In this document: positions 5,335 to 55,640 of the stretch, piece by piece
Layout of the letters: each line of letters begins with the position of its first letter
Position numbering within the stretch: the stretch's first letter is position 1
DNA from: Pegoplata infirma
Lineage: Eukaryota > Arthropoda > Insecta > Diptera > Anthomyiidae
Length of the DNA: 64,000 nt
Reading direction: 5' to 3'
Assembly (NCBI GenBank): GCA_963921195.1
Contig: OY992536.1
Span: forward strand, 329,919,038 to 329,983,037
Notes under the pieces: generated by a model
What the model was told of the DNA's origin: nothing
What the model saw: only the letters and a program-made list of their open reading frames with translations
Database searches by the model: none
Translations under genes and position numbers: made by a program

Positions 5335-5600
5335 ATGTTTTTAAAACATTGGTAACTCACGAAACTATTTTACAACGTAATTTTGTCACTCAAAAATTTT
5401 GTAACAAAAAAGTACACTCGAAAAAGTTTTACACTTAAAAAAAATTTTACACTCAAAAAAAATTTAGTAAATTATTTTTTTTTTTCAAAAATTACTTAAA
5501 CAAAAATTTTACATAACATTAAATATTTATAATCCAAAATGCTATTTACTTTCACTTAAAAAGGGCATTGTGGAGGGTATTCATAGATTAACTTAAACTT
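5335..5600 (+). repeat. Dispersed ACACTCAAAAAA-rich repeat, copy 1
   Basis: The copy begins near AACATTGGTAACTCACGAAA, contains several TTTTACACTCAAAAAAAA-like units, and ends in AAAAAGGGCATTGTGGAGGG. Similar sequence occurs at about 10195-10510 and 51460-51760. The end block resembles the GGAGGGTAT terminus of the mini-me copy at 3858-4534, so it may be a sub-family of the same element without the microsatellite. Confidence 0.65.
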
Positions 5601-13955: not shown

Positions 13956-14984
13956 TAAAATTTTGGGTGTACACATGAACCGGACTAAAAAATTCTGAGA
14001 GTACGGCCGAAAATAAAATACCTGTGTCTCCCAGTTTTTTTTTCGCACTATAGAAAAATTCACTCCAGGGGTGAATTTAAAAGTGTTTAAATATTCCACA
14101 AAAATGTTTCGTATCAAATTTTACTAAGGGTTGTCAAAGGCCAAAAGTTCGTAAGATGTTAGCATAGCAAAATGCATAAAAAAGTAAAATTGTACACACA
14201 GAGAAATGTTTAGTTGGAATTCCATTATGAAAACGGAATTTTGATAAATCTTATAAATTTTTAGTTGTTATTGTAAATTTTTTAACACCATACCAAATAA
14301 ATAACAGCAGTAATAATTAATAATCAATCGTGACCGAATGGATGTATCAACAACTAATAATTTTGTAAATATGCCCAAACTAAAAACTAATAAAATTTTT
14401 GAAAAATATTTAGTAAGTACAACCGTTTCTTTTAGTCTTTATTTTCCCTCTCGACCAATAATTATTTGTTTGAAATAATAAATTCCAAAAACATAAGGTA
14501 ATAGTATCAACAACTGAAAATGTTGGTTAACTTAACCAAATTTTCAATAATTTTTCATTTTTGAAAAATTTTACTAAATTATAAATTTGTATTGGTATTC
14601 TTAACTAATAATTGGTCTTTAGGATTTCATTTCGATTACAAAACTAAAACATTAAAAAAATTAAAATAGTAACTAGTTAAAAGAAAAATGTTATTGTGTT
14701 CAGACGTGTTTTAAATCTTTAAATAAAACTCATATAAAATTCAGCGAAAAAAGTTAAAAATTTAGACGGTAAGCTGATACTACTGCCGAAATACAAACAA
14801 TTTAAATAAATAAATCTTATTTTAGACATTTGCACACACAACTTTAATTTTGAGCTAACTTTAAAAACCTATGGAACAGTTTCCAAGAAATCCATAGAGT
14901 CCAAAATGTCGTGGGACTGGTAACAAATTTAAGGTTTATAAATGCCAGAATATTGGAATTAACAAAGGTTCATCCAAGACAATT

Positions 14985-15420
14985 ATCAGAATCTGAGACA
15001 TTTTCTATAGAAAAAATTACTCAAAATCTGAGACTTTTTCTGTAGGAAATATTTCTTAGAACCTAGGACTTTTTCTCCGAATCTGAGACTTTTCTATAGG
15101 AAAAGTTTCAGAATTTGAGACTTTCCTTATTATCTAAGACCTTTTTAATAGGAAAAATTCTCAGATAGTTCTACATTTTTTATTTAAAAGGTATTTTATT
15201 ATATTTTCGAAGATATTCTTTTACAGATTCTGAGATATTTTTTCTGTAAAAAAATCCTCGGATTCTGAGATATGTTTCTATAAAAAAAATCTGGAGATCT
15301 GAGATATTTTTTTAGATTTTTTCATTGACATCTTTTCTTAAGAGATATATTTTGACTTCGAGCTATTTTTGCTCTAGAAAGTCTCACAGATTCTAAGAAA
15401 ATTTTTTTTTTAGAAAAATT
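14985..15420. repeat. 35-bp AATCTGAGACTTTTTC minisatellite, degenerate block
   Basis: Imperfect units of CAGAATCTGAGACTTTTTCT...GGAAAAAT type, the same family as 45270-47640 and a shorter block near 31555-31740. Confidence 0.75.
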
Positions 15421-22377: not shown

Positions 22378-22994
22378 AAACAAGTAAGAAAGTTATAGTC
22401 GGTCATGTCCGACCTTATGGTACTGTAACGACTTGTTTTGCTAGGGTAAAATACTCAGCCTTTGTCCAGGTTCCGCTACAAGAAAATAATGTACACGTGC
22501 TCGTTTTGGTTTTTAGATATCACTCTCGGTTTTATTTATCATTCTAAAAATATATTTCATTTAAAGATATCGTATTAATTGCTTCGTTCCTCTTCGGATC
22601 CTCTTCGGCAATCCTCGTTGGGCCACCTCCTTGGCTTCCTGTGGCCGGTTCTTTGATCTGGGTATCCTACTGGAACAGATTATATCCTAGGGATACCATT
22701 CGGGTTCCTCGTTATACTCGTTATCCTTCGGCTTTGGTCGGGTCACCTCGCTCGTGCTTCGATAATTATACGGGGTTGTTCACTGGTCGTGCTAGAAAAC
22801 CACTCCCAGTCTCCAACCCAGTTGCCTTCACAAATCGTCTGCCCAGTGGTCCACTCGTGTTCGGTAACCACTCGTGAACCCTCGTACATCCGATCCGTGA
22901 TCACTGGCCAACGTTTCCCGCACAATCCTACGCCAAAATTTCTTCTCGGGTGTTAAACCTGACGGAACTCACTTGTCCTGATACTTGGAACACC

Positions 22995-24257
22995 TTCGGT
23001 AGCTGCTCGGTTAACCAGCAGCCGCACCTGAAAGCTGGAACGATTACTACGCTACCTTTCACCACACGTCCCTCGGAATCTGACTTCCACGGGTGCTCGC
23101 TAACCACCCGGTGAAGTGTTCCTTGGTTCGTCTACTTTCTAACCTTCGCCTGGTGCTCGGTAACCACCAGCCGAAGGGGATACTTATTTCCTGAAAAGGT
23201 GAGATTATTCCATCCGGTGCTCGGTAACCACCGGGTGGAATAGTTTCTACACTCAAAATAATCACTCTGTTAAATTACAGAGATACTCTGCTGAGCCAGC
23301 AGAAAATACCATAGATTTCCATTTTACAAAGAAAACTCTGTAAAATGATTTCGATAAAAAAAACTGTAAATTTACAGAATTATCTGTAAAATATTGATAA
23401 AAGCGACCAGAATTTGACTATTTTATTTACTATTTGATTTCTGGTCAAATAGCCAATCTGGTGTTGACAATTGAAAAATGCCATCGAGTAAATTTGCCCG
23501 CTTTAATGCTTAAAAATTGTAAATTTACTTTTTTTTATTTTTGTGAAAGTTTTTTACGAGTACCTCCAATTTTACACGACATCCTCGTAAAATTTTCCAG
23601 GGTTTATAATTACAGAGCAATAAATAAAAATACAGTTGAAATTTTGTATTTTGGTTACGAGAAAAAACATAAGTATTTTATAAAATCTGTATTTTAACAA
23701 AAAACTCTGTTTATTATCTCTAAAATAGAGATTACAAAGTAAAAAGTAAAATTACAGATAAAATTTTGTTTTTCGGTTACAAGAAAATACAAAGTATATT
23801 ATTAAAATCTGTATTTCGACAGATAACTTTGTCAAATAACTGTCGAATTGAGATTACAGTCATTTTACAGAGTTTTTAACAGAGTAATTATTTTGAGTGT
23901 AGACTACGGATTAATCTAATACCCTCCGGTGCTCGCTAACCACCTTCGGGAATGCTCGTTTAATCGAAAACTTATGACTATCTTCATCCAGTGTTCGGTA
24001 ACCACCGGCTGAAGTGTGCTACTCACTACTGACAACCCACTAGTGTCCTCGGGTGCTCGCTAACCACCGTCGGAGGGTTATCCTACCATTATCCAAACTT
24101 CGGCCTGGTGCTCGCTAACCACCAGTCGAAGCATATACTTAACTTAGATTTGGATTTACTACGTCTTTCCCTGGTGCTCGATAACCACCAGTGAAAGTTC
24201 ACTACTACTTATAGTAACTATAACTTCATAAGGTGTTCGCTAACCACCGAATAAAGT
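22995..24257 (-). repeat. Array of about ten hairpins with a constant loop
   Basis: The core GGTGCTCGSTAACCACC recurs at 23084-23116, 23143-23177, 23206-23242, 23922-23950, 23982-24014, 24047-24076, 24098-24131, 24165-24197 and 24223-24257, about 60-65 bp apart once the 650-bp MITE is discounted. A variant with GCTG...CAGC is at 23001-23022. The loop CTCGSTAAC stays constant while the outer stems differ and remain complementary: CTTCGGCCTGGTG with CACCAGTCGAAG, ATTCCATCCGGTG with CACCGGGTGGAAT, CTTTCCCTGGTG with CACCAGTGAAAG. The sequence between hairpins is not conserved. Confidence 0.9.
23250..23899. mobile_element. TA-duplicating MITE, 650 bp (Tc1/mariner-like)
   Basis: Inverted ends CACTCAAAATAATYACTCTG flanked by TA (23248-23249; 23900-23901). 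Removing it joins two halves of the hairpin array in register. The interior has TCTGTAAAATTACAGA-like short palindromes. No transposase. Confidence 0.88.
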
Positions 24258-24307
24258 GTCTACCTTAAAATAATTACCAGAACTTACACACAGAATTGCT
24301 GATCAAA

Positions 24308-24344
24308 GAATGAGACCGTTTTGTTAAAACACGCGTCTTTTATA
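24308..24344 (-). promoter_or_regulatory. TATA box and initiator of the LTR-like element
   Basis: On the minus strand TATAAAAG (24344-24337) is followed about 30 nt later by TCATTC (24313-24308), matching the spacing of fly core promoters with an arthropod TCA+G/T-type initiator. A transcript from here would enter the hairpin array after about 55 nt. Confidence 0.6.
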
Positions 24345-25267
24345 CAAATCTAAGCTTGTGTGTTGTTTTTATTTACCTAACGGTCAATATTAAAAACAAG
24401 TCCCTATATTTTGTTGCTACTTGGTTACTTGTTTATTACAAAAATAAAAGCCCACTGTATGTTGTTGCTACTTGTTTGTTACAAAATATTTCTACTGTTG
24501 GGTTCTGTTGCTTGTGTGCCTGCTATTTTAAAACTGTGTTGTTATTGTTATTTCATTAATCAGGTATTTGTACACTGTGTACGGTAAGTATACGGACACT
24601 GTCTGTGACACAAGTTTGCAAGCAAACTTGTCGTCACAGTACCCTACACCAGTGTTTTTGGAAAATGGGTCCAAAGTCCAAACATGGACCGATTTAATCT
24701 ATCTTGTGTTAGATATTTAATTAGTGTAAAAAACATATATGTACAAACACACCAAATTTTAATGGAATTGGTTTATTTTTGTTGCGATTAGAGCGATTTA
24801 ACTAAATATCGTTCGAAATTTTGATATATATATATTCAGATTTGAATACGAAAGTATACGTTTAACACCTTGAAATAAAATTTGAATAAATTATTTTGCA
24901 CTTTTATGAATTTTGAGAGAATTATATAAATATCGGGAGTGTGATTTGTATGGGGACTACAAGAAGTTCTAATCCGATTCTTTCAAAATTTAGAATAGTG
25001 ATTTGTGCATACAAAATTTGTGTGGGGGCAAGATCTTAACGGGGACCGATTTTTTACATTTTTAATAATCTTCGACTTTGAACCAAAGTATGTTTAAGTT
25101 TTAATTTTCAAGTCAACCTATTGTTCCATCGACCGTTTACATGGACAGACGGACGGACAGACGTACATATATCGCTAAATAGAATCAAATAATTATTCTA
25201 AGTCGATCAAACATCAAGTTACAAACATCAGCACAAACTCATTATATGCACACTCTGTGGTATAAAA

Positions 25268-45233: not shown

Positions 45234-45934
45234 GTTAAAAAATTGAAAAACATTAAGAATCTAAAATTTTTTGAAGACAAATGTTTTGAAACTAAAAATT
45301 TTTCCTGTTAAAAGAATCTCAAAATCTGAAAATTTTTTCTTAGAATATGAAACTTTTCAACTTAAGATTCTAATGAAAAATATCTTAGATCCTGAAGTTT
45401 TATGTACACAAAAAATGGACCTAATTGTAAGTAAAATGTAATCAAATCTTAAAAAACAATGTCTCAGAATCATACTGTTTTCTAAAAAAAAAATTCTCAG
45501 AATCTAAAACATTCTATAAGAAAAATGTCTGAGAATCGAAGACTTTTTTATAATAATAATGTCTTAAATATTTTTGCCTTTTTCTCAGAATCTATGACTT
45601 TTTCTATAGGAAAAATGTCTCAGAATCTGAGACTTTTTCTATAAAGAATTCTCAGAATCTAAGGCTTTCCTATATGAAAAATGTTTCAGAATCTGAGAAC
45701 ACAGAAAAAAAAATATTTAAGAAAATTTTAATAAACACGTTTATTAAAAATAAAAATATTTTTAATAAAATTTTTTATTGTATCAATAAAAAAATTTACT
45801 GAAATTAAAAAAAAAACTATGTTCAACTCATTCCGTCGGCAAGTTTTGTTGTGTTTCTTTTTTTCACACATAGTAATTTCAAAAAAAGAAATAACATAAA
45901 AAAAAAACAAAAAATATTAAAAAAAAAAAAAAAA

Positions 45935-46405: not shown

Positions 46406-47870
46406 TTAAGAAAAGTATAATAAATAAAAGAATTAAATAATAAAATAAAAATAAATAAAACAAAAAATATTTTTTTTCTTTAATTCTAAAAATATAAAAA
46501 AAAAAATATAAATCAATAAACTTTTTTATTGAATCTTGAAATCCCTTCATTGAAATTATTTTCAGCAAACGACTTACAAATGCGTTTATTGAATTCGTGA
46601 AAATCTTCACCACGGCTTTTTTAGTTAATTTATTTATTGAATTCGTGAATTTTTTTATTGAAATTGAAATTTTTTTTTTTGTGTGAACTTTCTATAGGAA
46701 TAATGTCTCTGAATCTGAAAAATGTTTAAAAATCTGAGATTTTTTCTATAAAAAAAATTCTTAGAATCTGAGGCTATTCTTTATGAAAAATGTTTTAGAA
46801 TTTGAAAACTTTCTGTAGGAAAATTTCTCAGAATTTTTCCTACAATCTTGGAAAATGTCTCTGAATTTTATACACTTTTTACGAAAAATGTCTCAGAATC
46901 AACGAATTTTTCTTAAGGAAAATTATCCCTAAATCTAAGATTTTGTGTATAGGAAAAATGTCTCATTGTCAGAGACATAAGCTGAGACTTTTGGTACAGA
47001 AAAATGCTCAAAATCTAAGACTTTTTCTATTGTAAAAATATACTTTTCTATAAGAATAATGTCTCAGAATCTAAGTAATTTTCTATGGGAAAAATATTTC
47101 AGAATCTGAGACTTTTTCTTTAGGAAAATTATCTTAGAGTCCGAAGCTTTTTCTATATGAAAAATGTTTCATAATCTGACAATTTCATATATGCAAAATT
47201 TCTCAGAATCTGAGACTTGTTCTATAGGAAAATGTCTAAGAATTTGAAAAATTTTCTATAGGACAAGTGTTTAAGCATCTGAGACTTTTTCGAAAAAAAT
47301 GTCTCAAAATCTAAGGAATTTTCAGTAGAAAAAATGTCTGAGAATCTAAGATATTTTCTATAGGAAAAATGTCGAAGAATCTGAGACTTTTTCTATAGGA
47401 AAAATGTCTTAGAATTTAAGACTTTTTCTATAAGAAAATTTTCTCAGAATCCGAGAGTTTTTCTTTAGGAAAAAGGTTTTAGAATCTAGGTCTCAGATTC
47501 TGAATTATTTTTCTTATAGAAAAAGCGAAGATATTCTCAGAATCTAAAACTTTTTGTGTATAATGTTTCAGAATCTGAGTAAATGTGCTAGACTAGAAAT
47601 ATTTCAGATTCTGGGAAAATGTCTCACAATCGGAGTCTTTTCTTTTGGAAAATTATTTTATGAATATGTTTACAGAATCATTTTTTCAAGAGAAACGTTT
47701 TCCATTGGAAATATGATTTAGAGTCTTTGACTTTTTCTATAACAAAAACTGTATTAACTGGAAATTGTCATAAAATCTTAGACTATTCTTTGAAAAAAAA
47801 TTCAGATGCTGATAATCTATTTTGTTAAAATGTATCAGCATCTGATACAATTCACATTTTAAGAAAAGGC

Positions 47871-54560: not shown

Positions 54561-55640
54561 GCATACATCATAGTGAGTTGTGGCACTTGTATGTTCTTAA
54601 TTCTCATTCTGTTCATTTTGTATTTCATATGAATGGTGAAGGTTGTGACCACCAAAGGCAGTTCACCAGTGGTGGACAAACCAGTTAGGTACGATCAAGT
54701 ACTTGTTCAACAGAACAGGATGTTGAGTGTATCTCCTAAATAAAAGGAACCTGACTGAAGCTTTGGTGGACGATCGATATCGATTGTCCTAATAAATAAA
54801 TACTCCTTGGGCTTCGGCTGACAGCTTTACTACTCCTGCGGCTTCGGCTGACTGCTTTACTACTCCTGCGGCTTCGGCTGACAGCTTTAATACTCCTGCG
54901 GCTTCGGTTGACAGCTTTCCTACTCCTGCGGCTTCGGCTGACAACTTTACTACTCCTGCGGCTTCGGCTGACAGCTTTACTACTCCTGCGGCTTCGGCTG
55001 ACAGCTTTACTACTCCTGCGGCTTCGGCTGACAGATTTACTACTCCTGCCGCTTCGGCTGACAGCTTTACTACTCCTGCGGCTTCGGCTGACAGCTTTGC
55101 TAATTTTTAGTAAATTTACAGGAGCTGTACCTCCGCCACAGAGGGGCTGCCAACAGAGAGTTGTAACGATTACCACCGCCTCCTGATCTAGACACAATCG
55201 GCCGATACATATACCTGCCATCGCACCAGCCGACATACCGAATCATACATCCTGATTATCACCACATGAACACCGTAACCATCGTAATAACCCGAACAAA
55301 ACCTGTCAAAGTACACACCGGCCGACGCACCGCAGTCATACCGAAACATCCAGCCTGATTATCACTATCCGAGTACCATAACCCGCATTTCGTAATAAAC
55401 CGAGTGAGAAAGAGTGGAGACGAAAGAACTGCGTTGCCAATAAATACATCGTGAAAACATATATACATATATGCATTGTGAATATTAAATATTAATTTTT
55501 AATAAAGAATATTTATTGTTAAACCCCAAAAAAGGGTAAATAACTGTGTTCTCATTACTAAAGGTTCGAGGGTCCTTAAGTAGATCCTGGCACGAGACTG
55601 AGCTACCTCAGCCACGACAAACCCCCCGTTATAAAATGTT
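54561..55640. other. G+C-richer segment around the 30-bp array, unclassified
   Basis: Contains AATAAA signals (54787, 55501), the 30-bp array and the ATACCGAA...CATCCTGATTATCAC duplication, and ends abruptly at CACGACAAACCCCCC (about 55626). Composition and structure recall a retrotransposon terminal or leader region, but no TG/CA ends, duplication or polyprotein is visible. Confidence 0.4.
54801..55100. repeat. 30-bp minisatellite, ten units, CUUCGG hairpin in each
   Basis: Ten units of TACTCCTGCGGCTTCGGCTG followed by ACAGCTTTAC, exactly 30 bp each. Because the period is a multiple of three, long frames arise on both strands: SRSRRSSKAV decapeptides on the minus strand (54736-55236) and LLLLRLRLTA on the plus strand. 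On the plus strand each unit holds CGGC-TTCG-GCTG, able to form a cUUCGg-loop hairpin. The surrounding 54560-55640 is richer in G+C than the window and contains two diverged copies of an ATACCGAA-CATCCTGATTATCAC block (about 55234 and 55350). Confidence 0.92.

Follow-up and report, generated by a model that had tools for sequence, protein, structure and literature searches.

A comb of hairpins with covarying stems and a near-constant loop in the long terminal repeat of a Ty3/gypsy element of Pegoplata infirma, and its possible reading by Gag

In the fly Pegoplata infirma (Anthomyiidae), a stretch of 64,000 nucleotides (contig OY992536.1, positions 329,919,038 to 329,983,037 of assembly GCA_963921195.1; this whole stretch is called the window below) carries a row of hairpins whose stems differ from unit to unit and whose loop hardly changes, which raises the questions of whether a structure of the RNA is maintained there and what would read it. 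The row, referred to as the comb, was found to comprise twelve hairpins in the long terminal repeat (LTR) of a Ty3/gypsy retrotransposon, and we consider selection on RNA structure to be its very probable cause. That the comb would serve as a docking array for the zinc-knuckle Gag protein of the same element is a reading that we put forward tentatively, on the basis of the sequences.

The sense strand of the element is the minus strand of the window, and all twelve hairpins lie between a TATA box and the last AATAAA of the LTR. The features, in the sense-strand order of TATA box, initiator-like TCATTC, hairpins, AATAAA and LTR end, were as follows.

22424..24638, minus strand: solo LTR, Ty3/gypsy, 2215 bp with its insertion, ends TGTGACGAC...GTCGTTACA, placed by sister LTR pairs
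24337..24344, minus strand: TATA-box-like TATAAAAG, from the sequence
24308..24313, minus strand: initiator-like TCATTC, presumed transcription start, from the sequence
24223..24257, minus strand: hairpin 1, loop GTTAGCGAA, 11 pairs, by fold and core match
24165..24197, minus strand: hairpin 2, loop GTTATCGAG, 11 pairs, by fold and core match
24097..24132, minus strand: hairpin 3, loop GTTAGCGAG, 12 pairs
24036..24077, minus strand: hairpin 4, loop GTTAGCGAG, 10 pairs, outer register uncertain
23982..24014, minus strand: hairpin 5, loop GTTACCGAA, 11 pairs
23922..23950, minus strand: hairpin 6, loop GTTAGCGAG, 7 pairs
23250..23899, no strand given: insertion resembling a miniature inverted-repeat transposable element, inverted ends CACTCAAAATAAT, 650 bp, TA on both sides; it interrupts the comb and is not part of it
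23206..23242, minus strand: hairpin 7, loop GTTACCGAG, 13 pairs
23143..23177, minus strand: hairpin 8, loop GTTACCGAG, 12 pairs
23083..23117, minus strand: hairpin 9, loop GTTAGCGAG, 11 pairs
22998..23028, minus strand: variant hairpin, inner stem GCTG/CAGC
22840..22888, minus strand: hairpin with inner stem GTG/CAC and GA/GA flanks, loop GTTACCGAA
22773..22819, minus strand: hairpin with inner stem GTG/CAC and GA/GA flanks, loop GTTTTCTAG
22531..22536, minus strand: AATAAA, presumed poly(A) signal, from the sequence

Nine of the hairpins have the inner stem GGTG/CACC (CACT once) and a 9-nt loop of the form GUUANCGAR. An earlier, sequence-only reading of the window had counted about ten hairpins at 60-65 bp, one of them with the inner stem swapped to GCTG/CAGC. 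Its units, the swap included, stood as placed (nine at 23083-24257 and the variant at 22998-23028), but the actual core-to-core spacing of the nine canonical hairpins was 55-66 bp, save for one step of 712 bp, and its range of 22995-24257 missed the last two hairpins of the row. It had also overlooked the 650-bp insertion, which accounts for the long step by parting hairpin 6 from hairpin 7 in the window copy; this gap is absent from copies L002-L010, and other gaps were seen in L044, L047, L048 and L050. The insertion contains two 122-bp tandem units, and a similar motif, CACTCAAAAAAAATTT, occurs in tandem runs at window positions 5413, 10260, 50241 and 51500. Loop variants among the copies were few: unit u5 has GTTACCGAA in 42 of 53 copies and GTTACCGAG in the other 11, and u6 has GTTGGCGAT in a sister subfamily (8 of 53). 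In the sister subfamily the GCTG/CAGC stem is replaced by TAATT/AATTA; in L018-L023, apparently recombinants between these subfamilies, part of the hairpin at this position looks unpaired.

The core pattern GGTGNTCGNTAACCACC had 1053 matches in the 1.38-Gb genome (813 contigs), in which the window LTR has many copies, versus none for the reversed control. When compared with dinucleotide shuffles, the comb of copy L018 folded with z scores of -4.9 on the sense and -3.7 on the antisense strand; the sense values of its flanks were -0.7 for the part upstream and -0.9 for the part after the comb. In an arm-swap test, only the 3ʹ arms were exchanged between units, each unit keeping its 5ʹ arm and its core. 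Swapped arms did as well as or better than the own arms in 0-2 of 20,000 sense-strand permutations and in 0-11 of 20,000 antisense ones (four copies, three arm lengths), as expected if different stems are kept paired round a fixed loop, which is what the sequence-only reading had claimed. A cruder local-duplex score gave less support: 7/20,000 with 11 units, 400/20,000 when just the first nine were used, and a best fit to the own arm in only 3 of 11 rows. As a negative control, the arm-swap test was applied to palindromic tandem repeats elsewhere in the window, of the TCTCAGAATCTGAGA type and including those at 45450-45698, 47044-47487 and 14981-15312, and these gave no own-arm excess (z -1.2 to +0.7; four regions, 3-9 units).

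Pair cells were counted at 121 pair positions in 49-53 copies of each unit: 6222 were kept, of which 6089 had the commonest pair, 121 a change on one side and 12 a change on both sides, and 61 were broken. Recent tandem duplicates that do not pair, the outcome named beforehand as speaking against a selected structure, are thus not what we observed: the units of the window differ so widely that they cannot be recent duplicates, and they still pair. For the same reason, recent tandem duplication was rejected for this family, called A below, and for family C.

Stem variants were tallied over 66 copies, corresponding to 56 elements after ten LTR pairs had been merged (L240, one of ten extra copies, gave no unit). 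Pairing was kept by 9 of 11 variants present in at least three elements, as compared with 22 of 78 private variants (Fisher p 0.001). Without selection, transitions in Watson-Crick pairs should produce G-U and A-C equally often on the sense strand; the ratio of G-U to A-C was 18:20 among private variants, 3:3 among variants of two elements, and 8:0 among those of at least three. Since folds of more than one copy had gone into the first structures, the tally was repeated with structures from the single copies L018, L001, L045, L016, L194 and L024. In this order, p was 0.002, 0.006, 0.0005, 0.002, 0.047 and 0.0003; shared variants kept or broke pairing in ratios of 12:6, 10:5, 12:5, 15:10, 11:12 and 17:10; and shared G-U to A-C ratios were 9:2, 6:0, 9:1, 10:3, 6:2 and 10:3. 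An earlier count over 53 copies, in which shared meant two or more elements, gave 9:6 for shared versus 23:52 for private variants (p 0.04). All these tallies rest on few shared variant events and on related copies, which are not independent. Pairing of the sense RNA thus tends to be respected by variants that have spread with active copies but not by private ones, and this contrast, together with the excess of G-U over A-C among the shared variants, points to selection on the sense RNA. Nucleotide diversity (39 copies, without L001) was about 0.01 in the inner stems, 0.022 in the loop, 0.04-0.06 in the arms, 0.09 in the spacer, 0.12 after the comb and 0.16 upstream. A tree from which L001, L039, L046 and L050 were excluded entered none of the counts. 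The arm swaps and the variant contrast both agree with the earlier proposal that structure rather than sequence is selected.

The element that bears the comb could be defined from its other copies, some of which are intact. The window LTR is bordered by a GTAC target duplication at 22420-22423 and 24639-24642, and sister LTRs are about 1.59 kb long. In ten LTR pairs compared, identity was 99.87-100% (for L049/L050 over 956 bp only), indicating that the family moved recently, and a 4-bp target duplication was seen in all nine pairs whose flanks were read. In these nine, a primer-binding site (PBS), AGTGGCGC, follows the 5ʹ LTR and a polypurine tract, GGGGGGAA, precedes the 3ʹ LTR. The interior of about 4.2 kb encodes Gag, protease, reverse transcriptase (RT), RNase H and integrase in this order (from Pfam matches to L042, taken as three consecutive pieces), which identifies a Ty3/gypsy element. 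The TG...CA ends with a duplication within 4-6 bp, the PBS and polypurine tract, and the gene order are all those of a Ty3/gypsy LTR retrotransposon. The surmise of an LTR-like element with minus-strand sense and a comb downstream of a promoter-like TATA is in agreement with these features. Because the presumed poly(A) signal is located 3ʹ of the comb, the comb would lie in R, the region repeated at both RNA ends; the transcription start and the borders of R are putative and were placed by motif. The leader is about 1.2 kb long up to the LTR end and has several AUGs. The start of the LTR is itself palindromic (TGTGACGACAAGTTTGC...AAACTTGTGTCACA; positions 1-35 of the L018 LTR, about 24604-24638 in the window), with a folding z of about -3 on both strands in L018; it is in U3, outside the comb.

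The sequence-only reading had overlooked that sister families carry other arrays. Searching the genome with Gag gave at least 138 matches, with identity down to 41% (115 of 1111 candidates scored), and 29 stretches upstream of Gag relatives were examined (20, and 9 of 20 more), with the window family proper excluded. An array, either tandem or in hairpins, was present upstream of the PBS in 27 of the 29, read directly or aligned to one that was read, and no array was found in L199 and L207. At L207 (G000:C1:168062200-168065700) there is a Gag-like open frame of 454 aa without upstream LTR, PBS or array, perhaps a gag adopted by the host. The PBS core TGGCGCCCGAGCA, which we take to resemble a lysine-tRNA primer site, is common to all eight families, A to H. 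A family termed A' (Gag identity 63%) has a comb LTR 93.5% identical to that of the window family and gag DNA about 70% identical, a disparity suggesting that the leader was probably exchanged between lineages; in the A'-type elements L194-L196, the near-identical comb LTR is joined to a diverged gag.

The arrays of the other families are of different design. Family B has AGTGA[UU...AG]UCACGA, and in family C a fixed U[UCA]ACA loop sits on unrelated covarying stems (GUUUGG/CCAAAC, CCUGAU/AUCAGG, CCUGGU/ACCGGG, UCCGGA/UCCGGA, GACGGGA/UCCUGUC and others). Families D and E have 54- and 43-bp tandem repeats with GGG...CCC hairpins, homogenised to 16.6 copies at 94% and 24.1 copies at 93%, family F has two alternating hairpins with GUUANCGA-type loops, and families G and H have CCU/AGG hairpins. 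In sense-strand arm swaps, own arms were matched or beaten in 4/40,320, 4/5,040 and 5/5,040 permutations in C (tested on L203, L229 and L231; the anchor pattern caught just 2 units in L202), and in 3/20,000, 12/720 and 144/40,320 in F. The values were 100/5,040 and 1,106/40,320 in B; 2/120, 4/24, 1/6 and 1/2 in D, with 2/2 for another anchor; and 1,200/40,320, 4,278/50,000 and 3,286/50,000 in E, with 720/720 for a narrower anchor. Families A, C and F thus show strong covariation, families B, D and E a borderline signal, and families G and H none. Span-limited folding on the sense strand gave z scores against shuffles of -5.1 and -4.7 in A, -4.0 and -2.4 in B, -4.0 in C and -2.6 in G.

What, then, could read the comb? 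In the model that we tentatively prefer, the sense RNA would fold into a row of 12 hairpins in R of a recently active element, each with an outer stem that may vary provided that it stays paired, a small internal loop, and a short inner stem capped by the near-constant 9-nt loop. Placed in R, the comb would be present at both ends of the genomic RNA, and could act as a multivalent docking array, its many similar loops drawing numerous copies of a single RNA-binding protein to the RNA. Gag of the element itself would be the likeliest partner: its zinc knuckle and second Cys-rich module may nucleate on the array, and Gag on the comb could mark the RNA for encapsidation and possibly aid strand transfer in R. 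A near-constant loop, free but paired stems, many copies and a presumed location in R are what would be expected of such an array, and in its position, folding and covariation the comb would agree with a packaging signal in a structured leader of genomic RNA. The CCHC knuckle of Gag is invariant in nine aligned sequences, and the second Cys-rich module is also present (P0009 ends before it). A CCHC match, with changes, was found in 10 of 11 gag stretches of relatives in the genome, and one of the eight Gag homologues found bears the name of the blow fly Lucilia sericata.

Several observations weigh against this reading. Families that differ in their loops have very similar zinc knuckles, and A' joins its near-identical comb LTR to a Gag of only 63% identity; hence a strict match of loop and Gag is not established, and a strict correspondence of knuckle and loop was set aside as unsupported. 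The GUUANCGA loops are common to A and F, and CGUUA is common to E and H, which together with the similar knuckles leaves room for a common partner. In the variant tally, pairing was kept in only 3 of 8 two-element variants, and with L194 as the structure source broken shared variants slightly outnumbered kept ones. No arm-swap excess was obtained in G (4,848/40,320) or H (235/720) on the sense strand, and the antisense score was about equal to the sense score in C, D and F, a result that counts against the proposal in F. Arrays D, E and F were no more stable than shuffles (z +4.0, +1.0 and -0.7), and U3 is also partly structured (z -2.0 and -3.1 in A, -3.3 in C, -0.9 to -1.5 in the others). 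Finally, TAR-poly(A) hairpins of the R region of human immunodeficiency virus type 1 (HIV-1) bind nucleocapsid only weakly (PMC7395439), and the R region of Ty1 is dispensable for RNA localisation to retrosomes (PMC4974528).

Alternatively, the comb may act like a constitutive transport or localisation element, binding a host RNA-binding protein by which the unspliced RNA is exported from the nucleus, localised or stabilised. Repeated hairpins with a constant loop would suit a host adaptor as well as Gag, and the loops common to A and F and to E and H are what a shared host partner would require; however, families B, C, D and G of the same genome have other loops, which disfavours a single fixed host factor, and we regard this explanation as unlikely. 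We give even less weight to a device for translation, in which a structured leader would force upstream AUGs to be bypassed through internal entry or shunting, or for reverse transcription, with pause sites that aid minus-strand transfer in a long R. The leader of about 1.2 kb with its AUGs and the position between TATA and AATAAA would fit such roles, but in neither would ten to twelve separate hairpins need covarying stems or an unchanging loop.

The units could also work as DNA, either by forming cruciforms or by serving a DNA-binding protein as tandem enhancer or insulator sites. A conserved 17-bp core recurs every 55-66 bp, and insulator-like arrays are known in leaders of insect LTR elements: the gypsy Su(Hw) insulator has about a dozen repeated DNA sites for a zinc-finger protein. 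The comb is alike in the number of repeats and in its place in a leader, but the Su(Hw) sites are without covarying stems, and DNA recognition predicts neither outer arms that covary while their sequence is free nor the 8:0 ratio of G-U to A-C among shared changes on the sense strand, so that this explanation appears very improbable. Least probable of all, in our judgement, is that the hairpins arose neutrally, when a palindromic unit was duplicated in tandem. The homogenised repeats of D and E, where covariation support is weak or none, are what such duplication would produce, and it may hold for these two arrays. In A, C and F, however, there is an own-arm excess that the other palindromic repeats of the window lack, and the contrast of shared and private variants in A is not accounted for either.

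No Rfam family matched at its gathering score in the window or in nine loci of families A-H, the relaxed matches (mir-29, MIR168) being far below thresholds, and the search for tRNAs found 0. There was no phage match, and no Gag relative in viral contigs. The core also turned up in 18 viral stretches and in at least 120 from prokaryotes, with a single occurrence in each viral stretch and in each of the 80 prokaryote stretches listed; this was taken as chance. Elsewhere in the window, a 166-aa open frame on the minus strand (54736-55236), largely made of ten 30-bp repeats (SKAVSRSRRS), had no Pfam match.

The search of one open-access library, which cannot prove absence, found no description of a hairpin comb in an LTR, in line with the statement of the sequence-only reading that it knew of no element with this design. 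As far as the available excerpts go, structured leaders of LTR elements are known, and the repeated hairpin with a near-constant loop, covarying stems and sister-family versions looks new. Among the closest likenesses is the HIV-1 psi signal (PMC7395439), a structured 5ʹ leader with many nucleocapsid sites, read by a zinc-knuckle Gag; its sites are heterogeneous, whereas the comb repeats one design about twelve times, with a near-constant loop, in the presumed R. Ty3 shares with the comb bearer its Ty3/gypsy membership and the Gag knuckle, but the passages seen on its leader mention no repeated hairpins; they describe the Gag zinc finger as critical for packaging, the packaging sites as not precisely defined, and untranslated regions or POL sequences as implicated (PMC11381356, PMC4974528). 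In the Osvaldo/Ulysses/Isis group of fly Ty3/gypsy elements, long LTRs and 4-bp target duplications occur as in the window element; an Isis-like element of Calliphora has 2.6-kb LTRs and 4-bp duplications, and no hairpin array figures in the passages seen on this group (PMC5408442, PMC3630058).

More broadly, and only as a speculation that we consider doubtful, a fast-evolving comb in R may be a property of an entire lineage within Ty3/gypsy, in which a family-specific loop would be a multivalent "address" read by the family's own Gag, and a changed or exchanged address could be part of how new families originate, A' being a possible example. According to two papers on Ty3, the packaging signal by which Gag picks its RNA is poorly defined in LTR retrotransposons (PMC11381356, PMC4974528). 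Hairpins with a near-constant loop that exist in differing versions within one genome are natural mutants for testing this recognition, and the comb offers a clear case of selection on RNA structure in mobile elements, in which the variants that spread mostly pair and the private ones mostly do not.
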